A DNA stretch of 64,000 bases from Paremcibacter congregatus (lineage in GTDB: Bacteria; Pseudomonadota; Alphaproteobacteria; Sphingomonadales; Emcibacteraceae), in the NCBI RefSeq assembly GCF_006385135.1, contig NZ_CP041025.1, positions 3,875,501 through 3,939,500 of the forward strand, given 5' to 3'. Under the pieces are notes generated by a model, which was not told the DNA's origin, ran no database searches, and saw nothing but the letters and a program-made list of their open reading frames with translations. Shown here in pieces: positions 11,217 through 29,610 of this stretch; position 1 is the stretch's first letter; every line of letters starts with the position of its first letter. A program made the translations under genes and the position numbers.

Positions 11217-12110
11217 ATGACAGAAAATGTAAGCCAACGGTTCTCGGACTTTGATCAATGGTCTACACAAGCCATGGTTGACGCCATGTATGAAGGACAA
11301 CTGGTGGCCATAGCCACAATCAAAGGCGCCCTGGAAGCCATTGCTCTCGCTGCAGAAGACGCGGCACCCAGACTTGAAGAAAAGGGCCGGCTTATATATG
11401 TGGGTGCGGGCACATCTGGACGCCTTGGTGTACAGGATGGCGCGGAACTGGGCCCCACATTCGGCTGGCCCCAGGACCGGATGGTCTTTTGCATCGCCGG
11501 GGGACTGAAAGCGCTCATCGTAAGTGCGGAAGGGGCTGAAGACGCCTTCGATCAAGGCGTTCTGGAAATACAAGAGGCCGACGTCAACAAAAATGACGTT
11601 GTGATTGGTATTGCCGCCAGTGGCCAGACCCCCTACACTCTTGGTGCAATCAAGGAAGCCAGATCACGCGGCGCCATGACAATTGGCATTGCCAACAACC
11701 CGGGCACTCCTCTTCTGAAGGAAAGCGAATACGCCATTTTGGCGGAAACGGGCAGTGAGCTGATTGCCGGATCGACCCGCATGAAAGCCGGCACCACGCA
11801 AAAGGCGATTCTGAATATTCTGTCAACAGCCATCATGTCAAAACTTGGCAGAATTTATAAGGGGTTTATGGTTGATATGGTTGTATCAAACCAGAAACTG
11901 GAGACCCGCGCCATCAGTATGATCGAGGATATTACGGGCTGTTCAACGGAAACCGCCCGAACCTCTTTGAAGGTGGCCAATAAAAATATTAAGGTCGCCG
12001 TCCTGGTAAGCCTGGGAGAAACTCTGGAAAATAGCCAGGCATTTCTGAAAAAATCCAGAGGAAACCTTCGCGATGCCTTGGCTTTATTAACATCAGACGG
12101 GAATCAATAG
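11217..12110 (+). CDS. murQ: N-acetylmuramic acid 6-phosphate etherase
   Basis: Cytoplasmic lyase of 297 residues that splits MurNAc-6-phosphate into GlcNAc-6-phosphate and D-lactate. The SIS fold is marked by YVGAGTSGRLGVQDGAE, the AEGAED segment carrying the likely catalytic Glu, GIAASGQTPYTLGA, and GSTRMKAGTTQK, followed by the family's C-terminal helical (UBA-like) part. These blocks match E. coli MurQ closely. It is the first gene of an apparent operon murQ-gntR-FAD dehydrogenase-nagB-nagA-kinase-anmK, with spacings from 4-nt overlaps to about 70 nt. Its substrate is supplied by AnmK and possibly by the BadF-type kinase. The D-lactate product would feed the dehydrogenase two genes downstream. 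Confidence 0.96.
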   Translation: MTENVSQRFSDFDQWSTQAMVDAMYEGQLVAIATIKGALEAIALAAEDAAPRLEEKGRLIYVGAGTSGRLGVQDGAELGPTFGWPQDRMVFCIAGGLKALIVSAEGAEDAFDQGVLEIQEADVNKNDVVIGIAASGQTPYTLGAIKEARSRGAMTIGIANNPGTPLLKESEYAILAETGSELIAGSTRMKAGTTQKAILNILSTAIMSKLGRIYKGFMVDMVVSNQKLETRAISMIEDITGCSTETARTSLKVANKNIKVAVLVSLGETLENSQAFLKKSRGNLRDALALLTSDGNQ

Positions 12111-12112
12111 GC

Positions 12113-12856
12113 ATGCATTCCGAATTAAAAAAAATAGTTTCAAAATGGGATAACTCTTCCCCCCTATATATTCAACTGGCCAATAATTTAAAGCAGATCA
12201 TCCTTGAAGGTAAAATGGCTTCAGGAGATTCTCTCCCTTCGGAGCGTATGTTGACCGAAATAACTGGAGCATCCCGCGTCACCGTTAGAAAGGCGATCCG
12301 CCGCCTGATCGAAGAAGGTCTTCTGTTGAGCCGCCAGGGCGCGGGCACGTTTGTCGCCCCCGCCATCGAACAATCGGGCGAAGAATTGACAAGTTTCACA
12401 GATGACGCCCAGGACCGCGGGGAAGAACCGGCCTCTATATGGCTTGTGCGCTCCATAGCCTCCCCGACGGAAGAAGAAGCCCGGCATCTGAAGATCTCCC
12501 TTAATGATCCAGTCGTTCGTCTCGGAAGAGTTCGTTTATCGGATGGCGAACCGCTGGCCATCGAACATGCTGTCATCCCGGCGGCTTTATTGCCCAGCCA
12601 CGAAAATGTCGGCCTTTCGCTTTATCAGGCGCTCGAAAAAATCGGCGTCTATCCTGTAAAAGGCACGCAAAAAATTCGCGCCTCCCTGGCGACCCCAACG
12701 GAAGCGGCACTTTTATCCATTCATGAAGAAAGTGAAATTCTTAGAATTGAACGGCATACATTTACGAAAGACGGGACGCCCGTGGAATATACAAGATCCG
12801 CCTACAGGGGCGATAAATATGTTTTTGTCAGCTACCTGCATGAATGTATTGATTAA
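12113..12856 (+). CDS. GntR-family regulator with UTRA domain (NagR/HutC-like)
   Basis: Regulator of 247 residues with an N-terminal winged helix (PLYIQLANNLK; LPSERMLTEITGASRVTVRKA; RQGAGTFV) and a C-terminal UTRA effector domain (LTSFTDDAQDRG onward). HutC-type members such as NagR, YvoA and DasR bind amino-sugar phosphates and repress or activate amino-sugar genes. The start is 2 nt after the murQ stop, and GGGAAT inside the murQ tail serves as ribosome-binding site, so it is co-transcribed. It is clearly paralogous to the regulator at 25232-25966, sharing for example LAIEHAV and TRSAYRGD. Probable targets are the TTGGTAT elements of this locus, including the one before murQ. GlcNAc-6-phosphate or glucosamine-6-phosphate is the likely effector, by family analogy. 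Confidence 0.9.
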   Translation: MHSELKKIVSKWDNSSPLYIQLANNLKQIILEGKMASGDSLPSERMLTEITGASRVTVRKAIRRLIEEGLLLSRQGAGTFVAPAIEQSGEELTSFTDDAQDRGEEPASIWLVRSIASPTEEEARHLKISLNDPVVRLGRVRLSDGEPLAIEHAVIPAALLPSHENVGLSLYQALEKIGVYPVKGTQKIRASLATPTEAALLSIHEESEILRIERHTFTKDGTPVEYTRSAYRGDKYVFVSYLHECID

Positions 12857-12923
12857 CACGGCTGTCTTCACTGATCCGATAAAGGGATGAAGACAACCAC
12901 CCAGAATAGACTTGGAAATCACT

Positions 12924-14315
12924 ATGTCCGACATCATTGACGCCCTTCAGGAACGGTTCGGAGAAAAGGCTGTACTGACAGCACATCAAATCGCAGAACG
13001 CGCCACCGGTTATTGGAACAGCAGTCCCATGACGGCAAAAGCCCTGCTTCGTCCCAAAACAACCGCTGAAGTTTCAGCAATACTGAAAATTTGCCACGCT
13101 CACGACCAAAGCGTTTTCACCCATGGCGGCCTGACCAGCTGCGTGCAAGGGACAAAAACAGGCGAAAATGATGTCATTATTTCTCTGGAACGCATGAATT
13201 CAGTGGTCGAGGTAGACACCACCTCCGGCACGGCCACTCTGGAAGCCGGCGTTGTCCTGGAGCAGGCGCAAAAAGCCATTGCCGAACAGGGGTTATATCT
13301 GCCCCTTGATCTCGGGGCGCGGGGATCCTGCACGATTGGGGGCAATATTGCCACAAATGCGGGCGGTATCAATGTAATCCGCTATGGTATGGCCCGTTCT
13401 CTGGTGTTGGGACTGGAAGCCGTTCTGGCTGATGGCACAATACTCAGCTCCATGAATAAAATGTTGAAAAACAACAGTGGTTTCGACCTGAAACAGCTCT
13501 TTATCGGCACAGAAGGTACTTTAGGTATCGTCACCCGGGCCGTCGTGAAACTTCAGCCTCAACAAACAACCAAAAATACCGCTCTTGCGGCCCTTCCCGA
13601 TTTCAACTCTGTACATATATTACTCAATCACATGAAAAATACGGTCGGCGCAAGCCTGTCCGCCTTTGAAATGATGGAAGGGGATTATTTCCGCGCCGTA
13701 ACCGAACCGGGATGGCACCGCCCCCCCATGGAGCGGGATTACCCCTATTACATATTATTTGAATGCGACGGCAGCGATCCTCAGCGGGATGATGAGCGAT
13801 TTTCCGAGGTCATCGAAGACGCCTTTGAAAAGGGCTATATTCAAGATGCCGTAATTCCCAAGTCAGAAAATGAACGTCAGGCACTTTGGGGCATTCGGGA
13901 TGACTTCGAAGCCATTTTACAACCGAAATCGGTTTATCTTTATGATGTCAGCCTGCCTATTCTGTCCATGGCGTGTTATATTCAGGATGTGAAAAACAAA
14001 CTGGCCCTGTTCCTGCCCGCATCCAAAGTCTTTGTGCTCGGTCATGTGGGGGACGGAAATTTACATTTCTTTGTGCAGCCCCATTCAGAAACACCCGCCG
14101 CTCGGGAATTTTCCGATCGGGGAATCTATGAACCCCTAAAAGCCTATGAAGGTGCCGTTTCAGCAGAACATGGCATTGGTTTCGAAAAGAAGAAATGGCT
14201 CAGTCAAAGCCGCAGCGCGGAAGAAATTGCTTTGATGCGCCTGCTGAAGGCCACCCTGGATCCTAAGGGAATTTTAAACCCGGATCTTGTTATTGACCAA
14301 CCAAAAAAACAATGA
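12924..14315 (+). CDS. FAD-linked D-lactate dehydrogenase-like oxidase (GlcD/DLD family)
   Basis: Flavoprotein of 463 residues with an N-terminal PCMH FAD-binding domain (HGGLTSCVQG, GARGSCTIGGNIATNAGG, GTEGTLGIVT) and a C-terminal FAD-oxidase domain ending in GHVGDGNLHFFV and SAEHGIGFEKKKWL, the metal- and substrate-binding segments of D-2-hydroxyacid dehydrogenases. I choose ATG 12924, with GGAAA upstream, over an in-frame TTG at 12912. The family oxidises D-lactate, glycolate or D-2-hydroxyglutarate. Its place in the murQ operon argues for D-lactate, which MurQ releases in equal amount to GlcNAc-6-phosphate. Oxidation to pyruvate would recover that carbon and pass electrons to an acceptor. 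No partner FeS subunit is adjacent. Confidence 0.87.
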   Translation: MSDIIDALQERFGEKAVLTAHQIAERATGYWNSSPMTAKALLRPKTTAEVSAILKICHAHDQSVFTHGGLTSCVQGTKTGENDVIISLERMNSVVEVDTTSGTATLEAGVVLEQAQKAIAEQGLYLPLDLGARGSCTIGGNIATNAGGINVIRYGMARSLVLGLEAVLADGTILSSMNKMLKNNSGFDLKQLFIGTEGTLGIVTRAVVKLQPQQTTKNTALAALPDFNSVHILLNHMKNTVGASLSAFEMMEGDYFRAVTEPGWHRPPMERDYPYYILFECDGSDPQRDDERFSEVIEDAFEKGYIQDAVIPKSENERQALWGIRDDFEAILQPKSVYLYDVSLPILSMACYIQDVKNKLALFLPASKVFVLGHVGDGNLHFFVQPHSETPAAREFSDRGIYEPLKAYEGAVSAEHGIGFEKKKWLSQSRSAEEIALMRLLKATLDPKGILNPDLVIDQPKKQ

Positions 14316-14366: not shown

Positions 14367-15404
14367 GTGTCCCAGCGTGAAATGCAAACCAAGATGTTTT
14401 CAGAAGCCGGAGAAGCCTCTGCTTCGGCTCGAATTTATCTCTCTCGCGCCACTTCTGCGCTCCAGAGAGTGGTCGAAAAAATTCATCTCTTCGACCCTGC
14501 TCTGGTCATCACCTGCGCCCGGGGGAGTTCGGACCATGCCGCCACATATGCCAAATATATGATTGAGAAACATCTGGGGCTTCCCGTCGCCTCCCATGCG
14601 CCTTCCATGTCATCCCTGTTTAAGCGCCCATTGAAAATGGATCGGGCGCTTTTCATCTGCATTTCACAGTCCGGCGGCAGCCCAGATCTGGTTGAATCGG
14701 CCAAACTGGCCCGCCAGCAAGGCGCCTTCACGGTAGCGTTGGTGAATGAAACGGCCTCTCCTCTGGCGGAAGCCTGTGAATATGTCATACCCTTATACGC
14801 CGGACCCGAGCTCAGTGTCGCCGCCACTAAATCATATATTTTGTCTCTGGTGGCCATTGCCCACCTGACCGCCTGTCTGTCCCGGGACCAAGATTTATTG
14901 GCGGATATTGAAACACTTCCCCAAAAATTGTCCGACGCTTGGACTTTGGAGTGGGGTGCCGCCCTGCCAATTCTTACGCCTGCCCGCAATTTCTTTGTTG
15001 TTGGTCGGGGCCTGGGGCTGGGAATTGCACAGGAGGCCGCCCTGAAATTTAAGGAAACATCCGGGCTACATGCAGAATCCTATAGCGCTGCGGAAGTCCG
15101 GCATGGGCCCATGGCTCTGGTCGAAAAGAATATGCCTGTCCTGTTATTCGTGCCTCAGGATGCATCCACCAAAAGCTTTGACGTCATCGCTGAAGATTTT
15201 ATTCAGCGCGGCGCAAAAGTTATCTCCGTCGGCAAATCCTATCGCGGCGCCGTGGTGCTCCCCACCATAGATGGCCTTGCACCGGAACTGTCTGTCATTT
15301 GTATGATTCAGACTTTCTACAAACTGGTCAATCGCTTGTCTCTGGAACGCGGCCTTAATCCGGATTCTCCCCCCTCTCTCCGCAAAGTGACTGAAACCGT
15401 ATGA
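14367..15404 (+). CDS. nagB-II: SIS-type glucosamine-6-phosphate deaminase (NagB-II)
   Basis: Protein of 345 residues with two SIS domains (ITCARGSSDHAATYAKY and ISQSGGSPDLVESA; VVGRGLGLGIAQEAALKFKE). It lacks the N-terminal glutaminase domain of GlmS, and this is the architecture of the alternative deaminase NagB-II described in Shewanella. It would convert glucosamine-6-phosphate to fructose-6-phosphate and ammonia. The start is GTG 14367 with AAGGAA upstream. The gene overlaps nagA by 4 nt, so deacetylation and deamination are translationally coupled. A sugar-isomerase or AgaS-like specificity is the main alternative, but adjacency to nagA favours GlcN-6-phosphate. Confidence 0.9.
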   Translation: MSQREMQTKMFSEAGEASASARIYLSRATSALQRVVEKIHLFDPALVITCARGSSDHAATYAKYMIEKHLGLPVASHAPSMSSLFKRPLKMDRALFICISQSGGSPDLVESAKLARQQGAFTVALVNETASPLAEACEYVIPLYAGPELSVAATKSYILSLVAIAHLTACLSRDQDLLADIETLPQKLSDAWTLEWGAALPILTPARNFFVVGRGLGLGIAQEAALKFKETSGLHAESYSAAEVRHGPMALVEKNMPVLLFVPQDASTKSFDVIAEDFIQRGAKVISVGKSYRGAVVLPTIDGLAPELSVICMIQTFYKLVNRLSLERGLNPDSPPSLRKVTETV

Positions 15405-16558
15405 CCGCAACAGGAATATATGCACCGGAAATATTAGTCGATGGCCGTTTTGTCACAGACCACATCGTCCTGATCGAAAAGGATGTGGTCATAAATATTC
15501 TGCCAAAAGAGCAATGTCCTGATGGCGTGCCAGTAATTTCATTTGATGACGGGAAGCTTGTCCCCGGTTTCTTTGATATTCAGGTTAACGGTGGCGGAGG
15601 TGTTCTTTTTAACGACGACCCCAGTGTCGCCGCTATCAAGGCTATCGGCGCCGCCCATCGTATATTCGGCACCACCATGTTTTTGCCCACCCTGATCAGC
15701 GATGATCTTGAGAAGATAGAACAGGCCATTGCGGCCGTTGATGCAGCTATAGATCAGGGCGTTCCCGGAGTTGTTGGCATTCATCTGGAAGGACCTTTCC
15801 TCAACGCAGAAAAAAAGGGCATCCACGATGCCCGCAAATTCCGCCGTCTGGATGAGGCCGCCATCCGGCTTTTATCCTCCTTAAGAAAAGGCCGCACCCT
15901 GATCACACTTGCCCCGGAAATGACAGATTGCGCCTCTATCGCCAAACTGGCGGCAACGGGCGTCGTCATCGCTGCCGGGCATACCAATGCCACCTATGAG
16001 CAGACCCTGGAGGCTGTCAAGGCCGGGGTGAGCGGCTTCACACATCTCTATAACGCCATGTCCCCCTTTCAAAGCCGCGCCCCGGGAGCCGTAGGGGGCG
16101 CTTTTGCAACGACAGATACTTTCGCGAGTCTGATTGCCGATGGCTTTCACGTCCATCCCGCCAGCCTCTCCCTTGCCATCCGGACCAAAGGTGTCGCCAA
16201 AACTATTCTCGTGACAGACGCCATGCCCACCGTCGGATCTGCACAAAAAGAATTTTGGTTAGGCGAAGAACGTATCACGGCCACAGGAGGCAAATGCGAA
16301 AATGCCTCCGGCGTTCTGGCGGGCTCTGACCTCGACATGGCCTCGGCTGTCCGTTTTATCGTCAACAACACGAAATATACGCTCGAAGACGCCTGCGCCA
16401 TGGCCAGTAAATCTCCGGCCAGTTTTATGAAAGTTGATCACGCGGTCGGCGACATCAAGATCGGGACAAAGGCCAATTTTACCCTGCTGGATAATAACCT
16501 GATGGTTTCACAAACATGGATTGACGGCGTAATATTTAAAGGACAAACAAGAAGATGA
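15401..16558 (+). CDS. nagA: N-acetylglucosamine-6-phosphate deacetylase
   Basis: Amidohydrolase-fold enzyme of 385 residues converting GlcNAc-6-phosphate to glucosamine-6-phosphate and acetate. Typical motifs are PGFFDIQVNGGGG near residue 55, HLEGPFLN with the metal-binding Glu, AGHTNATYE and HLYNAMSPFQ with metal/substrate His residues, DGFHVHP, and VTDAMP with the catalytic Asp. Both neighbours overlap by 4 nt (ATGA junctions), showing tight co-translation with the deaminase upstream and the kinase downstream. It is the meeting point of the two arms of the pathway, because MurQ and the amino-sugar kinase both yield GlcNAc-6-phosphate. Length and motif order are normal for the family. Confidence 0.95.
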   Translation: MTATGIYAPEILVDGRFVTDHIVLIEKDVVINILPKEQCPDGVPVISFDDGKLVPGFFDIQVNGGGGVLFNDDPSVAAIKAIGAAHRIFGTTMFLPTLISDDLEKIEQAIAAVDAAIDQGVPGVVGIHLEGPFLNAEKKGIHDARKFRRLDEAAIRLLSSLRKGRTLITLAPEMTDCASIAKLAATGVVIAAGHTNATYEQTLEAVKAGVSGFTHLYNAMSPFQSRAPGAVGGAFATTDTFASLIADGFHVHPASLSLAIRTKGVAKTILVTDAMPTVGSAQKEFWLGEERITATGGKCENASGVLAGSDLDMASAVRFIVNNTKYTLEDACAMASKSPASFMKVDHAVGDIKIGTKANFTLLDNNLMVSQTWIDGVIFKGQTRR

Positions 16559-17436
16559 TGTTTTATTTAGGTATTGATGCGGGCGGTTCAAACTGTCGCG
16601 CCCGACTGGTAAATTCAGAAGGCACTGTCTCAGGAGACGGAAGTGCTGGCCCGGCCAATATCAGACGAGGCATATCCGCCGCCGTCAGCGCCATTGAAGA
16701 GGCCTTTCAGAAAGCCGCCTTTGACGCTGGCCTGAATGATGTTTCCTTATCCGAAATTTCCGCAGCCATTGGTATCGCCGGCTTTTCCATGACCGAAATG
16801 ATTGACAGCTTACGGCAGCAGCTTTTCTTTTCAAATCTCAAAAGCGTCACCTTTGTGAGCGATGGTGAAATCGCCAATCTGGGCGCCCATGGGGGCCGGG
16901 ACGGTGGTACGGTGAGTGTGGGAACCGGCGCCATCGGCATTATTAAGCAGGGTCAGAAGCTCACCACGTTGGGCGGACATGGCTTCCCCATCTCTGATTT
17001 GGGCAGCGGCGCCTACATCGGGCTTAACGCGCTTAAAGACACACTCAGAGCCGCAGATGGCCTTATCCCCGAGACCGGTCTGACCGTCGAAATATTCGAC
17101 ATTTTCGATAATAATCCCCGAAAAGCGATCACCTTTCAGGATACCATGGCGGCGGCGAATTACGCGGAATTTACCCCGATTGTCATTTCTCACGCTCAAA
17201 AAGGGGATTATATTGCAAATAAAATCATGCAAAAATCCGCCCGGCATGTGACAGAACTGATCATGGCAATCCATAGAATGGATGTACCGCGCATATCTCT
17301 GACCGGTGGACTGGGCCCCGTACTCCTGTCCTGGCTTGATCCAGAGGTTAAGGAACTGCTTTCTGCGCCTCTGGGAAGCCCTCTCCAAGGGGCCATTGGG
17401 TTGGCAAAAGCACATCCCGTGAAAATCAAGAGGTAA
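16555..17436 (+). CDS. BadF/BadG-type amino-sugar kinase (GlcNAc and possibly MurNAc kinase)
   Basis: ASKHA-fold kinase of 293 residues of the BadF/BadG/BcrA/BcrD ATPase family. Its phosphate-1 loop is YLGIDAGGSNCRARL, a GAHGGRDGGTVSVGTGAIG block follows near residue 105, and the adenosine-motif-like SLTGGLGPVL is near residue 245. Family members include GlcNAc kinase and the clostridial MurK, which phosphorylates both MurNAc and GlcNAc. GlcNAc is expected from the two NagZ-type activities, and free MurNAc from the NamZ half of the protein at 18700-21774. A dual-specificity kinase would therefore complete the pathway, since AnmK handles only the 1,6-anhydro form. The first residues overlap nagA by 4 nt. 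Confidence 0.85.
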   Translation: MMFYLGIDAGGSNCRARLVNSEGTVSGDGSAGPANIRRGISAAVSAIEEAFQKAAFDAGLNDVSLSEISAAIGIAGFSMTEMIDSLRQQLFFSNLKSVTFVSDGEIANLGAHGGRDGGTVSVGTGAIGIIKQGQKLTTLGGHGFPISDLGSGAYIGLNALKDTLRAADGLIPETGLTVEIFDIFDNNPRKAITFQDTMAAANYAEFTPIVISHAQKGDYIANKIMQKSARHVTELIMAIHRMDVPRISLTGGLGPVLLSWLDPEVKELLSAPLGSPLQGAIGLAKAHPVKIKR

Positions 17437-17442
17437 AGCCAT

Positions 17443-18645
17443 ATGCACCCCCATATCCAGAAACTTCATAACATAGCAGGCAAGACAGATCGGTTGATTA
17501 TCGGACTGATGAGCGGAACCTCGCTCGACGGACTCGATGTGGCATTATGTCGAATTTCAGGCCAGGGAATGGAAACCGGCGTAGAACTGCTGCACTTCGA
17601 TACGATTGCCTATGACAAAACCTATAAGGACAAAATCAAAAGCGTCTTTTCCAAGCGTCAGGTGGATCTCCAGAATGTCTGCCTGCTGAATCCCTGGATT
17701 GGGGAACTTCACGGTGAAATGATCCTCACCTGCCTGCAAAAATGGGGCCTTGACGCGACCTCTATTGACTTGATCGCCAGCCACGGCCAGACCATTTATC
17801 ATAGCCCAAAATCTCTGCATCAACTGGCAGATTATTCAAACGCCACCCTGCAGATTGGCGACGGCGATCACATAGCCTGCACAACCGGAATCATCACCTG
17901 CAGCGATTTCCGGCAAAAGCATATCGCCGCCGGGGGAGAAGGCGCCCCGCTCGCCGTTTATGGCGATTATCTGCTGTTCAGCAACGCGGCGGAAAATCGC
18001 GTGATGCTCAATCTGGGTGGCATTGCCAATTTAACCTATTTACCCAAATCCCTGGACGCGTCCCATGTTTTCAGCAGTGATGTCGGCCCCGGCAACACCA
18101 TGATGGACGCCTTTGTGCAGCAGCATTGCCCCGGTCAGTATTTTGATGAGAATTCAGCCCTGGCCTTACAGGGAAATGTCCACCCCGGCCTGTTGACTGC
18201 TCTTAAATTTCATTCTTTTTTTGATCAGCCACTGCCCAAAACAACCGGACCCGAACTGTTCAATCTCGCTTATCTTCAGGATGCGCGGACAAGATGTGGC
18301 GTCAGGGAAATTTCGCCCGCAGATATCATGGCCACCTTAAATTATTTTTCCGCGGAAATGATTGTTCACGCCTTGAATATATGTGTCGACAAACTAGACA
18401 GTTACGAACTTTATGCAAGTGGCGGCGGCGTTCAAAACCCCCTGCTGATGAAAAATATCAGGAGTCTGCTCGGTGGTAAAAAAATCCGCTCCACCGCAGA
18501 TTTGAATATTAATCCAGATGCCAAGGAGGCCGTACTTTTCGCCATTCTCGCCAATGAATGTGTCGCGGGGGGGAAGACTCGATTTGGCAATATGAAAGAA
18601 GGTATTCCATCCATCACAATGGGCAAAATCAGTTTCTACGATTAA
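17443..18645 (+). CDS. anmK: Anhydro-N-acetylmuramic acid kinase
   Basis: Enzyme of 400 residues that opens the anhydro ring of 1,6-anhydro-MurNAc while phosphorylating it, giving MurNAc-6-phosphate for MurQ. The family signature GLMSGTSLDGLDV lies near residue 22, followed by IASHGQTIYH, IGDGDHIA, FRQKHIAAGGEGAPL, MLNLGGIANLTYL and SSDVGPGNTMMDAF, as in E. coli AnmK. It is slightly longer than the roughly 370-residue E. coli protein, mostly by an N-terminal extension. It is the last gene of the murQ operon and begins 6 nt after the kinase stop. Its presence shows that anhydro-muropeptides, the products of lytic transglycosylases, are among the substrates of the locus. Confidence 0.96.
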   Translation: MHPHIQKLHNIAGKTDRLIIGLMSGTSLDGLDVALCRISGQGMETGVELLHFDTIAYDKTYKDKIKSVFSKRQVDLQNVCLLNPWIGELHGEMILTCLQKWGLDATSIDLIASHGQTIYHSPKSLHQLADYSNATLQIGDGDHIACTTGIITCSDFRQKHIAAGGEGAPLAVYGDYLLFSNAAENRVMLNLGGIANLTYLPKSLDASHVFSSDVGPGNTMMDAFVQQHCPGQYFDENSALALQGNVHPGLLTALKFHSFFDQPLPKTTGPELFNLAYLQDARTRCGVREISPADIMATLNYFSAEMIVHALNICVDKLDSYELYASGGGVQNPLLMKNIRSLLGGKKIRSTADLNINPDAKEAVLFAILANECVAGGKTRFGNMKEGIPSITMGKISFYD

Positions 18646-18699: not shown

Positions 18700-21600
18700 T
18701 CAGCGGTGCGGCTTTTCCTTAAATAGGGCCTCATCCGGATAAAGCAGATACAGCGTCCGACGCGCCTTGAACTCATCCAAATCCGCTTTCCAGCTTAACC
18801 GTATCTCCTCGGCGCTCAGCCCCGCTTCTATCTGTCGCCGAAACAGATCGGTTCCCATCAGCTTGTCCAGCCATTGCGGCCGGTCAAGGAATTTCTCCTC
18901 CAGCGCCTTCGCCTTATGATACCAAGCGATCAATATTTCGATATTCAGGCCAGTGACAGAACTAGAACGGAAATCCCGACCGAAAAGTTGTTGCCCCTTT
19001 AATTTGGGATCAAGGGCCGCGCCCGGTTTCGGGACCGGGGTAAATTGAAAGCCGCCATATTCAGGCCGGACACCACCCAGTACCTGAAAGGGGAAATCCG
19101 TCCCCCGGCCCACGCTGACGGTGGTGGCTTCAAATAAAGCCAGAGATGGGTACAGCTTGATCGCCTTTTGATTGGGTAAATTGGGGGAAGGCTTGACAGG
19201 CAGGATATAATCCGTGGCGTGGGTGTAATTTTGCACAGGAATAACCGTCAAATCACATGTCGCCCCATAGGGCAACCACCCTTCCCCGTTGATCATCCGC
19301 GCCAGTTCCCCCAAGGTCATGCCATGCAACAGAGGAATGGGATGCATTCCGACAAAGCTTTGGAAGGCCGGCTGCAAAATGGGGCCGTCAATATAGGCGC
19401 CGTTGGGGTTGGGACGATCCAGCAACACCAGTGGAATCTTGTTGCGGGCGCAGCTGTCCATGACATAATGCAGGGAACTCAGGTAAGTATAGAACCGCAC
19501 TCCCACATCCTGAAGATCAAACACCAGAACATCCAGATCGGTTGTATCCTCGGCCGACGGGGATTTTTTCTTGCCATAGATTGACAGGATGGGTAACCCG
19601 CTTTGACTGTCCCTGCCATCGTCAACCTTGGCGCCAGCATCTGCGGTTCCGCGAATACCATGTTCAACGGCAAACAGTTTTGTCACCGCGACCCCTTCGG
19701 CCTGTAAAACATCAATCAGATGACGATCCTCAACCCGGGAGCTTGGATTGACGATCAGGCCCGCCCGTTTTCCCGCCAGCGCCTGTGTTACCAGATCCAG
19801 CCGTTCCGCCCCAGGCACCGCCTCCGCTTCCAGCTGGATCGGCAGATGACCCTGAGCTAGTTGATCACCGGCAAGTATTTGCACCAACGCATTAATGCTG
19901 GGACTTGAATAAGCGCCGCTCTGTTCATCCTTCACAGTGTTATAGTTATAGATGGCATAGGCGGCATCAACTTGATTGACAACAGACAGGATATCCGTCG
20001 GAAAACGCAAACTGATGAACACCGTTTCCTGCCCCGCCATGCGTGCCATGCGGTGAAGATTTTGCACCAGCTTCAAGCTTTCCGCCGTGTCTTCTTTGCC
20101 CCGCCATTCTGTGTCCGTCTTGGCCTGCCAGTCATTCACATCTCCCATACCACCCAGATCCACCGGGCTCGCCGCGGGGGTAATATGACCCGTGATCAAC
20201 AGATGCGTCGCCGGTGTCTGGTCCTGTGTCGGCATGATGTCCGTGATAATTTCCGGTGTAAGATCCGACAAAGAGGTGCCTTTTATATCAATTCTTTGTT
20301 CTGGGAACCGCACCCTCAGAGCCGATAGAAAGGCTTGCGTCACCTCTTCTGTTGGCATAATCACATGAATGGAACGAATGTCGTCGCCGACCACTTTTCC
20401 GGCCCGGAGTGTCTTCAGCGCGGTGATAGCGGCGACGGCCAGCTTTCGTTCAACATCCCGGTGCGCCGCCGTCCCGATGGTCTTTTCCGCCTGAATGATT
20501 TTTTGACCTAGTGACCGTTCAGCAGTTTCCCGGATGTTGAATTCTTCTTTCAGCCTCAGGATACGCCGCACGCTATGGGTAATGTCCTGTTCCCTGATCT
20601 CACCAGCCTCAACCCTGCGGGCAAGGTGCTCGATCAGGGCATCAACATCTTCCAGGTCGCGGGCGGACTGCACCTGGACCGGCATCAATAGAAGATCAAT
20701 GCCCGCTTTGAGCGCGCTTGCCATAGCGTCTTTGCGGTCCAGCAGGCTGGATATGGCTTTCATATTCATGGCATCCGAGACAATAACCCCGTCATAGCCG
20801 AATTCATGACGTAAAATTCCTGTCAGCATCTTTTTCGACAGAGTGGCTGGGGCATAGTGTAAGGATCCGTCCTTTGCCGTAATCTTATCGCCATCTAGTG
20901 CCGGGAACTGGATATGGGCCGTCATGATCATGGGCGCCTTCCCCGCAGCGATCAGGCGGGCAAAAGGCCATAAATCCGTATCATAAGACCTTGCCCGGTC
21001 ATGCCCTACCTGGGGCACCGCAAGGTGACTGTCCAGCGCCGTATCGCCGTGGCCGGGAAAATGTTTTAAAGTCGAGATAACACCACTGTCCATCATGCCC
21101 TGGGCCATCTGTCCCGCCAGCGCCGTCACCTTTTCAGGCTGATCGGAAAAGGACCGCACGTTAATCACCGGATTGTCGCGGTTGGTATTAATATCAACAA
21201 CCGGGGCGTGGTTGACATTTATCCCCAGAGCCATAAGCTCCGCGCCCAAAATGGCGCCAACCTTGCGGGCGAAATCATTTTGTCGTCCCGGCGGCGTGGC
21301 TGAAATGGCCATATTACCGGCAAAATTAGTCGCCCAGCTCCCGGGCAACCGCGCCACTTTGCCGCCTTCCTGATCAATGGAGATCAAAAGCGGCACCCCG
21401 GACGGAGACCTCAGGCTATGCCGTTGCAACCCATGGGTCAGCCGGACTGTCTGTTCGATGCTGTCAATATTATCCGCAAACAATATCACGCCCCCCAAGG
21501 CATGACGTTCGAGAAAACCGGCGACTTCGGCGGGCACTTGTTGCATGGGGGTTCGGCATTCTTCCTTTTCCCCTTTAGGCTCAGAACAGAAATAGCGGAA

Positions 21601-21774
21601 ATCAAGGATGATTTTCTGCGCTATTTTATCCTTGAGCGACATCCGGGAAAGGGTTTCCGACACCCGTTCTTCAGGCGTGCTCTTCGAACTGCAGCCTGCC
21701 AACAACATCACGCCTAGCATAAGAATTAGCATCAAGCGGGAGAAAGCAACGGGCAGGACTGATCGGTACGACAT
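18700..21774 (-). CDS. NagZ-NamZ fusion lipoprotein (GH3 hexosaminidase plus GH171 exo-muramidase)
   Basis: Predicted lipoprotein of 1024 residues (lipobox LLAGC, Cys28). Residues about 35-415 are a GH3 beta-N-acetylglucosaminidase: IDQEGGKVARLP (134-143), KHFPGHG (237-243) with the Asp248-Ser-His250 dyad of NagZ enzymes, and nucleophile Asp334 in VSDAMNMKA. Residues about 440-645 form a GH3-type C-terminal domain. Residues about 650-1024 are a DUF1343/NamZ domain: VEHGIRGT with Glu704, FDLQDVGVRFYTYLSS (752-767) and LDRPNPNG (785-792). NagZ removes terminal GlcNAc and NamZ removes terminal MurNAc, so one lipoprotein could shorten glycan chains from the non-reducing end. It follows the symporter gene by 18 nt, probably as an operon. 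Confidence 0.93.
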   Translation of the reverse strand: MSYRSVLPVAFSRLMLILMLGVMLLAGCSSKSTPEERVSETLSRMSLKDKIAQKIILDFRYFCSEPKGEKEECRTPMQQVPAEVAGFLERHALGGVILFADNIDSIEQTVRLTHGLQRHSLRSPSGVPLLISIDQEGGKVARLPGSWATNFAGNMAISATPPGRQNDFARKVGAILGAELMALGINVNHAPVVDINTNRDNPVINVRSFSDQPEKVTALAGQMAQGMMDSGVISTLKHFPGHGDTALDSHLAVPQVGHDRARSYDTDLWPFARLIAAGKAPMIMTAHIQFPALDGDKITAKDGSLHYAPATLSKKMLTGILRHEFGYDGVIVSDAMNMKAISSLLDRKDAMASALKAGIDLLLMPVQVQSARDLEDVDALIEHLARRVEAGEIREQDITHSVRRILRLKEEFNIRETAERSLGQKIIQAEKTIGTAAHRDVERKLAVAAITALKTLRAGKVVGDDIRSIHVIMPTEEVTQAFLSALRVRFPEQRIDIKGTSLSDLTPEIITDIMPTQDQTPATHLLITGHITPAASPVDLGGMGDVNDWQAKTDTEWRGKEDTAESLKLVQNLHRMARMAGQETVFISLRFPTDILSVVNQVDAAYAIYNYNTVKDEQSGAYSSPSINALVQILAGDQLAQGHLPIQLEAEAVPGAERLDLVTQALAGKRAGLIVNPSSRVEDRHLIDVLQAEGVAVTKLFAVEHGIRGTADAGAKVDDGRDSQSGLPILSIYGKKKSPSAEDTTDLDVLVFDLQDVGVRFYTYLSSLHYVMDSCARNKIPLVLLDRPNPNGAYIDGPILQPAFQSFVGMHPIPLLHGMTLGELARMINGEGWLPYGATCDLTVIPVQNYTHATDYILPVKPSPNLPNQKAIKLYPSLALFEATTVSVGRGTDFPFQVLGGVRPEYGGFQFTPVPKPGAALDPKLKGQQLFGRDFRSSSVTGLNIEILIAWYHKAKALEEKFLDRPQWLDKLMGTDLFRRQIEAGLSAEEIRLSWKADLDEFKARRTLYLLYPDEALFKEKPHR

Positions 21775-21792: not shown

Positions 21793-23352
21793 CTAAAGTT
21801 CACTCGTTACCTGTTTGTCATTTCCGGCCAGACAAACCAGAAAGGCACAACCGGTGCCAATACAAAGCTGCCAAGAGAACGCCAACGCCTTCCACCCTTG
21901 TGGAAGTCCCAGAACATCAACAATATAGCTCTGTTGCAACAACGTAACCACAAAACCCACCACCAATGCCAGAATAACAGACCGTGGGGAGCCCCGCTTT
22001 GTAAACAGGACCGTAAAATAGACCCCCAGCAACCCGGAATAGGAAAACACCATCACTGACAGGGCAAATTCCAACAGGGGCATATTGGTATATTTCTGCC
22101 AATAGTAACAAAGCACTGCCATCAGGAATAACCCAATCCCCACGCCCCCCATGCAGATGCGGCCGGCGATAACAAAATGCTTTTCCGCCACCACTGATTT
22201 GCTCTCGCGCCAGGGTTTATAAAAATCCTGCACAATCACAGACGACATGGAATTCAGGCCTGAATTGATGGTTGAAACCGCCGCCGCAATCACCCCAATG
22301 GTCACCAGTCCCCGCATCCCAGCGGGGAGTTCGGTGAGGATATAATGCATAAATATGGTAATCTTCTCCCCCGCGAATGTCTGATTGGCAGCCGAGGCTA
22401 CGCCAGCACCCATAAGGTCAGGCCGTTCATAAAAGACATGCAACAATTGACCAATGGAAATGAAGAGCCAGACCACAGGAACGGCAACAATAGCCGAAAT
22501 CAAAAGCGCCTTCCCGCCCTCATTCTCATTTTTACAGGTCAGCACCCGCTGCGTCATATCCTGATCAAGCCCAAAGGCGCCAATGGACAGCAATGTGAAA
22601 CCGGTCAAGATTGAAATCAAGGTAAAAGGTTCGGAAAAATTCATCGCCGTGTTGATAAAGCGTAGTTTATTCTGCCCGTCGGGAGCTTGACTGAGACCGG
22701 CGAAAATATCATCGGAACTGGCCGGAATTTGGTCCCATAAAAAAAACAGCACAGCGCCCACGGCGATACAGTATATGATAAACTGGATCAGGTCGCTCCA
22801 GACAACCGAATTGATTCCACCGAGAAACGTCATCACAAAGCCCAGCGCCATCATGATAAAGGCGGCCATAATGATACTGTCCGCATCCACATTTGAAAAA
22901 AGGATCATGGCCACGGCAATGGCCGCCAGATAAAGCCGGGCGCCACTGGCGAACATGCGGCCGATCAAATACATACCGCCCGCGGCCCGCATGGTCGTCG
23001 CGTTAAACCTTACTGCCAGAATTTCATAAACCGTGGTCGCCTTATAGTGATAAAATTTCGGGATCAGTATTTTGGCAACAAACAACGCCGCGATCAAGGT
23101 TCCGATATTTGTGGTAAGATAGGTGTAGTCGCCGCGAAACCCCTGATCCGGCCCCCCGAGAAAAGTGGCTGCGGATTGCGATGTGGCGAGCACTGATATG
23201 GACACCACCCAGAAGGGCATTTTATTGCCACCGAGGAAATAATCCTGCGAATTTTCTGATTTGACCCGGGTGGACATCCAGCTCATCCCCATTAACAGGG
23301 CAAGATAGCCCCCGACGATAACCCAATCGAGCAACGCAAAACTATCCGTCAT
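21793..23352 (-). CDS. Sodium:solute symporter (SSS family)
   Basis: Inner-membrane symporter of 519 residues with about 13 hydrophobic helices. SSS features include an N-terminal GGYLALLMGMSW helix, SQDYFLGGNKMPFWVVSISVLATSQSA spread over helices 1-2 with the family Ser/Thr-rich sodium site, and GLFVAKILIP-like segments in the middle. It resembles the SGLT/YidK branch that carries sugars and sialic acid. It is the first gene of an operon with the NagZ-NamZ lipoprotein, so GlcNAc, MurNAc or anhydro-MurNAc freed in the periplasm are the likely cargo. This would replace the MurP/NagE PTS systems used by enterobacteria. GAGGTGAGGG upstream supports the ATG. Confidence 0.9.
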   Translation of the reverse strand: MTDSFALLDWVIVGGYLALLMGMSWMSTRVKSENSQDYFLGGNKMPFWVVSISVLATSQSAATFLGGPDQGFRGDYTYLTTNIGTLIAALFVAKILIPKFYHYKATTVYEILAVRFNATTMRAAGGMYLIGRMFASGARLYLAAIAVAMILFSNVDADSIIMAAFIMMALGFVMTFLGGINSVVWSDLIQFIIYCIAVGAVLFFLWDQIPASSDDIFAGLSQAPDGQNKLRFINTAMNFSEPFTLISILTGFTLLSIGAFGLDQDMTQRVLTCKNENEGGKALLISAIVAVPVVWLFISIGQLLHVFYERPDLMGAGVASAANQTFAGEKITIFMHYILTELPAGMRGLVTIGVIAAAVSTINSGLNSMSSVIVQDFYKPWRESKSVVAEKHFVIAGRICMGGVGIGLFLMAVLCYYWQKYTNMPLLEFALSVMVFSYSGLLGVYFTVLFTKRGSPRSVILALVVGFVVTLLQQSYIVDVLGLPQGWKALAFSWQLCIGTGCAFLVCLAGNDKQVTSEL

Positions 23353-23832: not shown

Positions 23833-23956
23833 CTAGTTAATAACTTGAAACGATGTAACAAACTCATCATAGGCCTCTATCTGTACTGCTTGTATCCTCT
23901 GGCTATATAGGCGCTTACCCTGTGTCCTTATGATGTTTTCACTTTGGAAGATTCCC

Positions 23957-25006
23957 ATGACAGAAACCCCTGCTCTCCGTCCTGCCAGTACGACCTCAAA
24001 CGTCATTTTTGGATGTTCAGGGCTTCGCCTCACCCGGGCGGAAATCAACCTGTTCACGGCAGTAAAACCCTGGGGATTGATCTTGTTTTCCCGCAACCTG
24101 CAATCTCCGGATCAGGTCACGTCACTGGTCGGAGATTTTAAAGAAGCCATCGGACGAGACGAGGTTATGGTCTTGATTGATCAGGAAGGAGGGCGTGTGT
24201 CCCGGCTCCCGCGGGAATTCTGGCGCATCCCCCCAAGCCCGACCCTGTTTGCAGAAATCTATAAAAACGCCCCCCGGGACGCCGAAACCGCCATTTACCT
24301 TAATTACCGACTGATCGCTCACGATCTGAAAACGCTGGGCATCAATGTTAATTGCGCGCCAATGCTGGACATTCCTCTGGCGGGCTCCGCCCCCGTTGTC
24401 ACAGATCGGGCGCTCGGGACCACACCAGAGGGGGTTAGCCAGCTGGCTGTCCAGGCCATCGCCGGCATGAAAGCTGGCGGCGTCGCGCCTGTGATCAAAC
24501 ATGGTCCCGGCCACGGGCGCGCCACAGTCGACAGCCACCATGACGTGCCCCGCGTCGCCGCATCCCTGGAATCTCTTGCTGCCTTTGATTTTATTCCCTT
24601 CAAAAACCTGCACAAGGAAGCCATGTTGATGACGGCCCATATTATATATGACGCCATTGATTCCACCTTGCCCGGCACCATCTCGCCAATCATCATCAAT
24701 AATATCATTCGGTCAGAACTGGATTTTGGTGGTCTGATCATGACCGACGACATTAACATGCATGCTCTCTCCGGGCCCATCGAACAACGGGGCAAACAGG
24801 CCATTGCGGCGGGCTGTGATGTCATTCTACACTGCAGTGGCATTCTGGAAGAAATGACCCGACTTGCAGAGGTAGTTCAGGATCTAGAGGGCGCCAGCCT
24901 GAAACGGGCGAAAAAGGCAGAATTCGAGGCTTTTGCCGAGGCGGGGGAAATTGATCCGGTCCAAATTCAGGCGGAACTGGACAGAATACTTCACGACTAT
25001 TTGTGA
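23957..25006 (+). CDS. nagZ: Beta-N-acetylhexosaminidase, cytoplasmic NagZ
   Basis: GH3 glycosidase of 349 residues without signal peptide, releasing GlcNAc from GlcNAc-(anhydro)MurNAc and muropeptides in the cytoplasm. It has LIDQEGGRVSRLP, VIKHGPGHGRATVDSHHDVP (the NagZ Asp-Ser-His loop) and the nucleophile Asp in MTDDINMHA. GPGHG is the only visible departure from the usual IPGHG-type loop. I choose ATG 23957 because GGAAG lies seven bases upstream; the ATG at 23930 lacks such a site. This second GH3 enzyme, besides the lipoprotein fusion at 18700, implies hydrolysis both outside and inside the inner membrane. It is followed by a GntR/UTRA gene 225 bp downstream. Confidence 0.93.
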   Translation: MTETPALRPASTTSNVIFGCSGLRLTRAEINLFTAVKPWGLILFSRNLQSPDQVTSLVGDFKEAIGRDEVMVLIDQEGGRVSRLPREFWRIPPSPTLFAEIYKNAPRDAETAIYLNYRLIAHDLKTLGINVNCAPMLDIPLAGSAPVVTDRALGTTPEGVSQLAVQAIAGMKAGGVAPVIKHGPGHGRATVDSHHDVPRVAASLESLAAFDFIPFKNLHKEAMLMTAHIIYDAIDSTLPGTISPIIINNIIRSELDFGGLIMTDDINMHALSGPIEQRGKQAIAAGCDVILHCSGILEEMTRLAEVVQDLEGASLKRAKKAEFEAFAEAGEIDPVQIQAELDRILHDYL

Positions 25007-25231: not shown

Positions 25232-25966
25232 ATGAAATTGGAGAGAATTACACCTGACAAAAGCACTGTAACGCCTCTATATATACAGATTGCGAATAAC
25301 ATCCGCACCTATATTACCGACCATAACGTCGAAGTTGGCGAAGCCTTGCCCCCGGAACGGGACCTGTGCCACATGACCGGGACGTCCCGGGTGACCATTC
25401 GCAAGGCCTTAAACAAGCTCGCAGAAGATAAAATAGTCCAACGTCGGCAGGGCGCGGGCACCTTTGTTCTGCCCCGGGTTGAACATCTGGGATCAAATCT
25501 TAGCGGCTTTACCGACAATGCTCTCAATCAGGGGCTCAGCCCCCAAGCCATATGGATCATGAAAACCTATGGCAGCCCCACCGCCGAAGAAGCTGAAATT
25601 CTGAAGATTTCTCAAACAGATAAAGTCGCACGCTTCGGCCGGGTACGCCTATCCGACAACCATCCACTGGCCATCGAACATGCCGTAGTTCCCGCCAAGC
25701 TCTTGCCAAATATTAGCGATATATCCGAATCCTTGTATCAGGCACTGGAATCAATGGGCAATCATCCGGTAACGGGCACCCAGCGGGTCAGGGCCTCTTT
25801 AGCCAACCCGACCGAAGCAGGTCTTCTGTCTGTCGCGGAAAACAGCGAAGTTCTGCGCATTGAACGACGATCCTATCTGGAAGATGGCACCCCCGTCGAA
25901 CTGACACGTTCTGCTTACCGTGGCGATCATTATGATATCGTGATGAATCTGGAAAATATTGAATAA
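25232..25966 (+). CDS. GntR-family regulator with UTRA domain, second paralogue
   Basis: Regulator of 244 residues with the winged-helix segments PLYIQIANNIR, LPPERDLCHMTGTSRVTIRKA and RQGAGTFVLP, and a UTRA effector domain starting near LSGFTDNALNQG. It is colinear with the murQ-linked GntR protein, with long matching stretches such as FGRVRLSD and LAIEHAV, so the two arose by duplication. It probably senses a phosphorylated amino sugar. It is convergent with the large TBDR gene at 26125 and downstream of nagZ. The existence of two regulators suggests that separate effectors, for example GlcNAc-6-phosphate and a MurNAc derivative, may be read independently, but this is inference. Confidence 0.9.
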   Translation: MKLERITPDKSTVTPLYIQIANNIRTYITDHNVEVGEALPPERDLCHMTGTSRVTIRKALNKLAEDKIVQRRQGAGTFVLPRVEHLGSNLSGFTDNALNQGLSPQAIWIMKTYGSPTAEEAEILKISQTDKVARFGRVRLSDNHPLAIEHAVVPAKLLPNISDISESLYQALESMGNHPVTGTQRVRASLANPTEAGLLSVAENSEVLRIERRSYLEDGTPVELTRSAYRGDHYDIVMNLENIE

Positions 25967-26124: not shown

Positions 26125-29100
26125 TTAGAACCTGAACTTAGCTGTGAGCTGCAGACGACGCGGGTTATAAAAGCTCCGCGCTTCGCCAAAACCCGCGCTG
26201 TTGACTTTGTTCTGAATGTTATAACCGGTCTGTTTATCAAATACGTTAAACAGGTCAGCACGCAACTGGACAGTATAGCCGTTATACACCTCTATATTCT
26301 GGGTATAACTCAGGTCAAGTTGTACATGGGCATCCGTACGACGGGAACCTGCTGGTTCCGCATAACGGCTCGTATCACTTTTACTGCCTGTCAGATGGCT
26401 ATACAGAGAATAATCCCATTTTTCCCACGGCTGGCCGGATTGGGCGATCAAGAAAGCACCAAGTTGCCCATCCCAATCAAACTGGTAATAGCCATAGAGT
26501 TTGAACTGGTGACGACGATCCCCACGCAGGAAACCTTCGCGGAAGTTCCAGAGCTGACGACCCGCACCGTCCGCAATAAAGGAAGATCCGATAAAGGTAT
26601 CTGCATCATTTTTGGTTGTGGTGTTATCTTGGTCAAAGTTACCCGTATACCGGCTCCAGACGTAGGACGCGGATACGAATAGATTCTCAGTGGTATATTC
26701 AGCCTCAGCACTGACTTCCCAATAATGGGTATAAGCATTGTCCAGTTGAGCAATGACATAGGATGATCCACCGATTTCAGCGCGAATATCTGCCAAATTT
26801 GGGACATAATCAGTCGTAGGAGTTCCTGCGGGAGGTTCAAAACGGGACCGGGCATTGTTTTCTGTATCCTCCCAGAAATTCCCGCCTTCACGATAACGTA
26901 CATGAGCTCTCAACATCAACCCATCCGTAATCTGACTATTCCAACCAATCAAAAACTCATCAATTTTACGAGGGCTCATATCTTCCTGGAATACTTTGCC
27001 AGATGACGACCTAACTGACGTGCTCTCAATAATATTGCCGGCTTCGTCGAAGAAAACATCCACTGTTTTTTGTAAATTCCGACCCCAGGACGCTGCCCGG
27101 GCCAAGGAAGATGCAGAAGGATTATAACGCGCATAATTCACATAGACAGCACTGGTATCTGAATAATCCCAATTGATGCCAAAGCGTGGCTGGATCATAT
27201 CAGTCCAGTCAACTTCATACATCTTATACTGGTTTCCTAGCGCCACCTCATAACCTGAGACGGTACCTTCTTTTTCACGCAGCCCTTGACCGAAAAGAAT
27301 ATCGTTGCTGATCAACGCCCCTACATTAATAGTAAAATCACCTGTTTCAATGGTATCATTAATTTCCAAACTCTGCAGTTTCGATTTCGATTTGATTGAA
27401 GGCACCAATGCCGTCCCATCAACCCCTTCAAGACTCATCTGATTGAGGCGAGCGACATAATATACCGGCGTCACTCCGTCCTCAGCAAAGGTCTCTCCCC
27501 CATGGGCTGTAATGATCCCCCATCCATTTGAGTTACGCGCCAGATCTTCTTCAATTTCCTGATATTGATATCCGATATGAACGTCGTGGGTCGTATCCCC
27601 AGCGTAGAAAGACCGGTCATAGGCAACCTCAAAACTGATGCGGGAGAAGTCCTGGTCATTAATTGTAGACCCTCCACCAACAACACCACCCCCGGCTGCC
27701 ACACCATTATCAAGATAGCCATACTTGTTAACCAACGGTGTAGCAAATGCATTAAAGGCATTTGCGGCATTATTATCGGGATGATTAACGTCTGTTTGAT
27801 TGGGGAGGTCCCGCAATTTAGGTACAAGAAATAGCCCCTGTTTATCCAGTGCTGAAACATCCAGCTTACCGTCTAATGAACGAGGAAAGTCAAAAAGTGT
27901 ATCAGGACGCCCTGTTGACTTCAGTTCAAAATTGGTAAATTTAAAACTCAAAGAACTGTCTTCATCCACAATCCAGGAGCCTTCAACAATAGCAATATCC
28001 TGTGCAGTATCCGAACCATTTGCCGCTGAAGCTGCGGTAAAACTTCCTACATCCTCCGTACGATCTGAACGGTCTGACGTCCGGTAACTGGCATCCAGAA
28101 GAATATCATCTGTCGGCGAGAAGGTCAGCTTCCCAAAAAACTCATTACGCTTACTGCTGTAATTCGGAACATCGCCGTAAGCATTGCTCACATTGTCCCG
28201 AGTCTTGGTCGGACGATAATAAGAGGTATAGAAAAATAATCTATCTTTAATGATTGGACCACTGAGATTGGCCGTAATCCAGGTTCTATCTTCATCAAAC
28301 TCTAAGGGTGTATCGCCATTCTTCCGGCTACCGGTCATACCGGCTGTTTGGGTTTTGTAACTAATTTCCCCGTGGAATTCATCCGTACCGCGTTTACTGA
28401 TGGTATTCATCAGGAAACCGCCTGAACGGTTAAAACCAATGGCCGTCGCGCCACCACGCACCACAGACACCTGATCAATATCATGCGAAGATGGTTCCGC
28501 AGACAGTGTCCCGAACATGGGCAGGGAAATATCAACCCCATCAAACTGGTACATATTATCCTGGCCACTGCCACCAGCATTTGGCCCACGACGTGTATCT
28601 TCGGAATATTGCACCCCGGGAATCAATTTTTGCAGATCGCGATAATCCTGACCGACTGGCAGACCTTCAATGGTTGCGGAACTGATGGAGTTCTTCAGGC
28701 TCGCCCGACCGGTAACGACGCTGCTCTGGGTACCCACCACAACAATCTCGTCAAATTCCTGGCTCTGGGCCATATCAACTTTTGATTTTTGTTGTAGTTT
28801 CACCGCTACATTACGCTTTTGTTCACTGCCATCAGGGAATTTAAACGTGAGTACATAATTGCCCGGAGGCAGCAAAGGCAGCTGATACCGGCCATTCTCA
28901 GCGGATGTGGTTGTCCGGGGTTGCGGCAGCACATCTCCTCTGGCTTCAATCGTCACACCGGCAAGAGCTGTTCCGTCTGCCTGGGTAATTCGACCGGTCA
29001 CGCCACCGGCTTGCTGGGCGACGGCGGGCGCACTGATCACCAGCATACTGGAAGCCAAAGCCGCCCAGGTCAAACTCTGGGTCGCACTGAGACGCGGCTT

Positions 29101-29127: not shown

Positions 29128-29200
29128 TCGTTTCCTTTCCCTTATGATCACTACAGTAAATTTAAGTGGCTTTGTGGTTCTTATAGTTGTTAGAAACATT

Positions 29201-29460: not shown

Positions 29461-29610
29461 TTAATTGGTCTTCTTCTTGGGTACAAAAAACGGAATAGAA
29501 GAGCTGTGACCGGCTGGCACACTCCCATGCTTCGAGGTGTGATAAAACAGTTACTCCTTCTCAATTTCCACTGGACACATAATGATTTATTGATTTAGGC
29601 TTTATTCGTG

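Follow-up and report, generated by a model that had tools for sequence, protein, structure and literature searches.

In Bacillus subtilis the two glycosidases NagZ (YbbD, family GH3) and NamZ (YbbC, family GH171) are encoded in one operon, murQ-murR-murP-amiE-nagZ-ybbC, in which ybbC is the gene that we take to be namZ. The available portion of PMC5061867 gives amiE, nagZ and ybbC as consecutive genes of this N-acetylmuramic acid (MurNAc) operon, and a 2026 review (PMC13204101, in extract) describes extracellular NagZ and NamZ as liberating monosaccharides from peptidoglycan-derived sugars in Gram-positive bacteria. Here we analyse a stretch of 64,000 nucleotides of Paremcibacter congregatus (contig NZ_CP041025.1, positions 3,875,501 to 3,939,500; hereafter the window), in which one gene joins both enzymes in a single chain with a predicted lipoprotein signal. 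Both enzyme families and the pairing of their genes were known from B. subtilis; the novelty lies in the single-chain form, in its apparently recurrent origin and in its position within what appears to be a full utilisation island. The first-pass annotation of this gene knew of no characterised enzyme of this architecture, and among the matches listed in open-licence PMC papers, a set that does not include the founding NamZ papers, none describes a NagZ-NamZ or GH3-DUF1343 fusion.

Compared to B. subtilis, the same two enzyme families are found, with a two-domain NagZ bearing an Asp-His pair, and in both cases MurQ is encoded nearby and NagZ is extracytoplasmic (by prediction in the window). 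The differences are that NagZ and NamZ come from separate genes in B. subtilis and form one chain in the window, that the amidase is AmiE in the former and an AmiD/AmpDh3-like candidate in the latter, and that uptake depends on a phosphotransferase system in the former and probably on a sodium:solute symporter (SSF) and TonB receptors in the latter.

One open reading frame holds both enzymes

The fusion gene is a single open reading frame (ORF) of 1024 aa, with an ATG start and no internal stop (coordinates of all features are in Table 1). Its N-terminal signal carries LLAGC, judged by eye, with the Cys at position 28, and the call of a lipoprotein signal is based on the lipobox rule. Pfam recognises the GH3 domain (PF00933, E 4e-85, 286.5 bits against a cut-off of 27), NamZ_N (PF07075, E 1e-75) and NamZ_C (PF20732, E 2.9e-24), the last two far above their cut-offs. 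Glyco_hydro_3_C had no Pfam match in the fusion protein; the second domain of NagZ is recognised by homology, the alignment with 3bmx running on to residue 656. By sequence search, the best PDB relative of residues 5-656 is B. subtilis NagZ/YbbD (3bmx, E 1.8e-104), and that of residues 650-1014 is a DUF1343 protein of Bacteroides fragilis (4jja, E 6.5e-102). The two homologies meet at about residue 650-656, practically without a linker. Judged from these matches, both halves are complete, a B. subtilis-type NagZ followed by a NamZ.

A model of the fusion was built with AlphaFold from 26 aligned sequences. It has a mean pLDDT (predicted local distance difference test) of 74.9 and a pTM (predicted template modelling score) of 0.50, the local score being mostly above 90 in the NamZ half, mixed in the GH3 barrel and poor in the second NagZ domain. 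With VIA-align, the model superimposes on 4jja with a Z score of 46.8 (348 residues aligned, 1.5 Å, 47% identity), and on 4gyj with a Z score of 46.1 (502 residues, 5.2 Å). ORF, Pfam domains, PDB matches and lipobox thus agree with the first-pass proposal that one lipoprotein joins NagZ and NamZ, and the placement of residues 650-1024 in DUF1343/NamZ holds by PF07075, PF20732 and 4jja, in sequence and in fold.

Could an assembly or sequencing error have merged two genes? A search for NamZ in 15 relatives of the genus detected none, and the join therefore lacks confirmation from a close genome. On the other side, the genome is a single contig (4,189,011 bases), and GC content (0.543 and 0.547) as well as GC at third codon positions (GC3, 0.604 and 0.607) are nearly equal in the two halves. 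The NamZ motif GAER is at residue 655, exactly where NagZ homology stops (about 656). The standalone NamZ relatives L029, L030, L031, L033 and L042 have 19 to 42 residues ahead of GAER, and by eye this stretch is signal-like in L029, L031, L033 and L042; at the join of the fusion a second signal peptide is absent. The GH3-NamZ architecture moreover recurs in two other genomes. We consider such an error extremely improbable. A frameshift or a lost stop codon was likewise rejected, given the absence of an internal signal peptide and the same architecture in other genomes.

Catalytic residues and predicted activity

Asp248, His250, Asp334 and Glu704, which the first-pass annotation took to be intact, are present at exactly those positions. 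By a manual count along the alignment with 3bmx, the first three correspond to D232, H234 and D318 in the B. subtilis enzyme; the Asp-His pair after the KHFPGHGDT motif and the position of the Asp nucleophile are both present. D318N is, from the PDB titles, the mutant behind the complexes 4gyj and 4gyk with GlcNAc-MurNAc (GlcNAc, N-acetylglucosamine), and the Asp-His mechanism of this enzyme is described in the portion of PMC6403190 available. In the other half, E704 falls on the 'EHG' Glu of 4jja and 4k05, a residue that is presumably catalytic in NamZ.

Across 14 other aligned GH3 rows, 13 of them distinct and one being the second NagZ of the window, D248, H250 and D334 never vary. In 60 other NamZ rows, of which 58 are distinct, 47 columns reach a conservation of 90% or more; the NamZ half of the window protein retains 46 of these 47, and L028 and L206, two further fusions described below, retain 45 and 44. 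The E704 column is Glu in 44 of the 60 rows and Gln in 16, and hence lies outside the 47. The Gln rows, mostly GPQHG, form one supported proteobacterial branch of PF07075 (support 97, 16 rows: L002-L005, L007, L009-L011, L013, L014, L016, L018, L019, L113, L116 and L118), which may have either another mechanism or lost its activity.

We conclude that the protein is probably a bifunctional, lipid-anchored, periplasm-facing peptidoglycan exo-glycosidase. Its GH3 half would cleave off the non-reducing terminal GlcNAc, with D334 forming the covalent intermediate and D248/H250 acting as the general acid/base. The MurNAc thus exposed, if free of peptide, would next be cleaved by the GH171 half, with E704 as a catalytic carboxylate. 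By taking turns, the two sites would peel denuded fragments of glycan down to single sugars, and anhydro-MurNAc would remain from those that end in it. NamZ requires peptide-free MurNAc, and such peeling would therefore need a separate amidase, for which the lipoprotein encoded 7.8 kb away is a good candidate. The physical link between NagZ and NamZ supports a model of alternating action on glycan chains, and having both on one protein allows their coupling to be probed by mutating one site at a time. Should both sites be active, it would also be a one-enzyme tool converting denuded murein glycan into GlcNAc and MurNAc.

Two alternatives concern the activities themselves. One half might be catalytically dead and serve for binding or as a scaffold: in some fused pairs of enzymes one activity has been lost, and the GH3 half is divergent, just below the NCBIfam cut-off for NagZ. 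The invariant GH3 triad and the near-complete set of conserved NamZ columns make this unlikely. Less probable still is that the GH3 half is a general GlcNAcase of chito-oligosaccharides, with a substrate other than peptidoglycan. Other GH3 GlcNAcases (6k5j, 4zm6) do figure among the PDB matches, and GH18 genes lie near a haloarchaeal NagZ/NamZ pair (see below), but the best matches are to B. subtilis NagZ, and NamZ, MurQ, AnmK and the amidase are murein families.

Distribution and origins of the fusion

NamZ_N was searched in several genome samples, which overlap and whose counts include the centre genome. It was present in 3/40 relatives, 26/385 genomes in the class and 23/299 in the phylum, 34/246 in the order of L028, 88/249 in the order of the Robiginitomaculum locus L030, 5/184 in the order of the Microbulbifer locus L032, and 2/48 in the family of genome G816; 3 of 14 control genomes were positive, B. 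subtilis included. Within the set of 40, none of the 15 further genomes of the genus and 8 further ones of the family, several of them incomplete, had a match. The listed matches were screened by frame length, and inspection covered every frame from about 800 aa upwards and four shorter ones; frames ended by contig ends could conceal fusions. Among the inspected frames, GH3-NamZ was found only in the window, in L028 (genome G691) and in L206 (G816), the last two belonging to genomes of the Lachnospiraceae order. Several other frames were discarded as GH3 fusions: in the long frames L008/L208, L157/L204, L165/L205, L181/L207 and L254/L261 the partner is of beta-lactamase type, L262-L264 have a NamZ match and neither a GH3 nor a beta-lactamase-type one, and L265 (a 517-aa frame) has a NamZ match only.

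With the full-length protein as query, 94 of 100 genomes of Microbulbifer's phylum matched, none of the listed matches covering both halves; G695 and G956 carry the two halves as separate genes. A scan of genome contigs, scored for GH3 fusion and the only search in which Bacteroidota were sampled, confirmed 326 relatives; of the best 80 of these 326, a single one, L028, is a GH3 fusion, with the proviso that the scan may leave out records from the genome of the window itself. On plasmids, 500 records matched, and of the 20 listed, 12 have both as separate annotated genes and 8 have GH3 alone. The single-chain form appears to be rare.

Some of these plasmids carry clusters of their own. On the Halorussus aquaticus plasmid NZ_CP100402.1 (L249, 186-8751), genes for AnmK, Amidase_2, a beta-lactamase family protein, NamZ and NagZ follow each other, the last two 6 nt apart, and two GH18 genes lie further on, in what looks like a peptidoglycan-degradation cluster. 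Nine more listed haloarchaeal plasmid rows have separately annotated nagZ/GH3 and DUF1343 genes. On the Enterobacterales plasmid NZ_CP145926.1 of Providencia (L248, 5908-10273), GH3 and DUF1343 genes flank a gene for a 362-aa protein without Pfam match.

L028 and L206 have the same order of domains as the window (GH3, NamZ_N, NamZ_C), with a longer junction. A tree of NamZ halves was made by a quick method (68 rows, 65 different). The window groups with three Robiginitomaculum rows (support 100), whereas L028 and L206 come from another branch, where they group with L177, which is unfused and comes from the sample of that same order (support 100). No GH3 frame was found in 16 kb around L177/L251, this unfused sister. 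Holding the GH3-fused rows together lowered the log-likelihood by 196.7 units on the quick tree, and the approximately unbiased (AU) test rejected this single event (p 1e-60). Because one origin of the GH3-fused NamZ halves is rejected, the tree indicates at least two independent fusions, and such repeated joining suggests selection for coupling. L206 (2240-6382) has, in addition, three C-terminal S-layer homology repeats, suggesting that this protein may be anchored to the wall.

The NamZ half has standalone relatives, 68-69% identical, in metagenome-assembled genomes of Robiginitomaculum. In L030, NamZ (68%) directly follows an amidase 55% identical to that of the window, beside a receptor 63% identical to receptor 2 of the window; the genome of L030 gave a single match to GH3, in a frame of 353 aa. 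As these three homologous genes stand together in L030, the trio appears to be the older grouping, which NagZ would have joined later by fusion. The GH3 half has no such relatives among the sampled genomes of the class: at E 1e-60 the window genome alone matches among 289 genomes of the class. The donor is likely to lie outside the class; in a tree of GH3 halves the rows are too few and too distant to place it.

A second architecture has NamZ as C-terminal half too, fused to a beta-lactamase-type (AmiE-like) domain. It was found in five genomes (G363, G755, G786, G892 and G1313; loci L204, L205, L207, L208 and L261), in the order of L028, in the class of the window and in the order of Microbulbifer. 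The partner family is one from the same B. subtilis operon, a presumed amidase here and NagZ in the window. For these fusions a single origin was not rejected (AU p 0.172, four rows, L261 left out). In the accessible part of a 2008 survey (PMC2605481), one DDPept-DUF1343 protein is tabulated, so that this second architecture has already appeared in print.

A candidate peptidoglycan island around the fusion gene

About 31 kb around the fusion gene reads as a peptidoglycan-catabolism island, by the names that its genes receive in profile and PDB searches (Table 1).

Table 1. Features of the fusion protein and of its surroundings in the window
Feature	Coordinates	Strand	Basis
NagZ-NamZ fusion lipoprotein	18700..21774	-	ORF, Pfam, PDB sequence search, alignment, fold comparison
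Type II signal peptide, residues 1-28, lipobox LAGC, Cys28	21691..21774	-	sequence, by eye
GH3 TIM-barrel domain PF00933, residues 72-408, with D248, H250, D334	20551..21561	-	Pfam, PDB search
Second (C-terminal) domain of B. subtilis-type NagZ, residues about 409-650	19825..20550	-	homology to 3bmx
NamZ N-terminal domain PF07075, residues 672-869, with E704	19168..19761	-	Pfam, alignment
NamZ C-terminal domain PF20732, residues 874-1012	18739..19155	-	Pfam
DUF819 gene	9-1172		domain match
NlpC/P60 + SH3 lipoprotein, like 3m1u (putative gamma-D-glutamyl-L-diamino acid endopeptidase)	1182..2627	+	Pfam, PDB search
L-Ala-D/L-Glu epimerase-like enolase-family enzyme	2649..3740	+	1jpm, E 2.7e-91; below NCBIfam cut-offs
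Beta-lactamase-family protein	3818-5731		27% identity to fused domain of L208
Diaminopimelate decarboxylase LysA	6673..7935	+	TIGR01048, 478.5 bits (cut-off 297.9)
TonB-dependent receptor 1	8302..11049	+	Pfam
MurNAc-6-phosphate etherase MurQ	11217..12110	+	NF003915, 341.6 (cut-off 168); NF009222, 286 (255); under TIGR00274, 285.4 (302)
GntR/UTRA regulator 1	12113..12856	+	profile search
GlcD-like FAD oxidase	12912..14315	+	below NCBIfam cut-offs
NagB-II-like glucosamine-6-phosphate deaminase (SIS)	14367..15404	+	318.1 bits, below cut-off 430
GlcNAc-6-phosphate deacetylase NagA	15401..16558	+	TIGR00221, 283.6 (cut-off 225.65); under NF008371, 303.9 (483)
NagK-type amino-sugar kinase	16555..17436	+	226.9 bits, below cut-off 370
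Anhydro-MurNAc kinase AnmK	17443..18645	+	NF007149, 655 bits (cut-off 616)
Sodium:solute symporter (SSF)	21793..23352	-	best PDB match 5nv9; below NCBIfam TIGR00813 cut-off
Second NagZ, single-domain, no visible signal peptide (cytoplasmic type)	23930..25006	+	NF003740, 220.8 bits (cut-off 207)
GntR/UTRA regulator 2	25232..25966	+	profile search
TonB-receptor-like outer-membrane protein 2 (labelled 'Oar-like')	26125..29268 (start probably 29127)	-	CarboxypepD_reg over cut-off; Plug 20.2 under 23.9
Amidase_2 + PG_binding_1 lipoprotein, AmpDh3/AmiD-like	29608..30705	+	Pfam, PDB search, lipobox

The symporter gene is directly upstream of the fusion, on the same strand and with a gap of 18 nt. Its best PDB match, 5nv9, is presumably a sialic-acid symporter, and import of the released sugars is its probable role. 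On the plus strand, murQ, GntR/UTRA regulator 1 and the genes for the FAD oxidase, the NagB-II-like SIS protein, NagA, NagK and AnmK form a run with gaps of -4 to 55 nt. MurQ, NagA and AnmK each score above one or more of the NCBIfam cut-offs that go with their names. The oxidase is a candidate D-lactate dehydrogenase for the by-product of MurQ. NagK, best matched in the PDB by the probable GlcNAc kinase 1zc6, also matches the N-acetylmuramic acid/N-acetylglucosamine kinase 8zo3 and may accept MurNAc too. A lipobox is also present in two neighbouring peptidoglycan enzymes. LysA could equally belong to lysine synthesis, and the beta-lactamase-family protein, considered as a possible AmiE, falls below the cut-offs of all the best 25 of 32 matching NCBIfam models.

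Placed in this setting, the fusion protein would act on fragments imported by a TonB receptor and stripped of their peptides by the lipoprotein amidase. The symporter would take in the sugars, NagK, AnmK, MurQ, the FAD oxidase, NagA and NagB-II would route them into central metabolism, and the epimerase, the endopeptidase and LysA would process the peptides. The island is a compact candidate for the catabolism of peptidoglycan, sugars and peptides alike, in a Gram-negative bacterium.

The same enzyme might instead chiefly recycle the turnover of the cell's own wall in the periplasm, rather than feed on foreign peptidoglycan. AnmK and NagZ are recycling genes, and B. subtilis applies NagZ and AmiE to its own turnover muropeptides, according to the part of PMC5061867 available. 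However, AmpG (479 bits, cut-off 350) and a canonical NagZ (360 aa, single-domain) are already encoded elsewhere in the genome, the 23 further genomes of genus and family that were searched, several of them incomplete, yielded no NamZ, and the TonB receptors, GntR regulators, epimerase-like enzyme, LysA and lactate-type oxidase read as catabolic. We regard chiefly own-wall recycling as rather doubtful.

Several points weigh against a bifunctional enzyme at the centre of a utilisation island. At the protein level, NF003740 gives the GH3 half 195.1 bits for a cut-off of 207, its 340-position model covering residues 83-389 only, and the closest sampled relatives of this half, which has no close one, are gammaproteobacterial proteins of about 40% identity. 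In the predicted fold the second NagZ domain is unreliable, as is the relative orientation of the two halves, which cannot be read from a model with this pTM. The Gln in 16 of 60 rows makes the role of the putative EHG Glu across the NamZ family less certain. B. subtilis NagZ and AmiE are inactive on intact peptidoglycan, as stated in the available part of PMC10653849, which makes fragments the likely substrate. At the level of the locus, NagB-II, NagK, the oxidase, the symporter and the epimerase are below NCBIfam cut-offs, the fusion and symporter genes are on the strand opposite to the kinase operon, and no operator common to both GntR regulators was found in the window. Finally, given the AmpG and canonical NagZ encoded elsewhere, recycling need not depend on the fusion.

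A stronger version of the bifunctional, catabolic reading is possible, and we put it forward tentatively: the fusion would bring a kinetic gain by real coupling, the product being handed between sites while one anchored chain processively peels a denuded strand. It would have come under selection separately in Alphaproteobacteria and in the Lachnospiraceae order, in the window within a complete, regulated system for living on foreign peptidoglycan.

Two further observations concern this gene set and its surroundings. A perfect palindrome, ACCACTTTCAAGTGGT, lies at 23527-23542, in the gap from which the genes for the symporter and the second NagZ diverge, and is a candidate regulator site; within 3 mismatches, the only other copy in the window is at 55657, with 3. 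Upstream of the window (L239, 12798-14210 and 15279-19237), there is an ApeA/HEPN defence-like gene and, nearer to the window, genes for an M19 dipeptidase, a Na+/H+ antiporter-family protein and an FAD oxidoreductase, which may extend the island.

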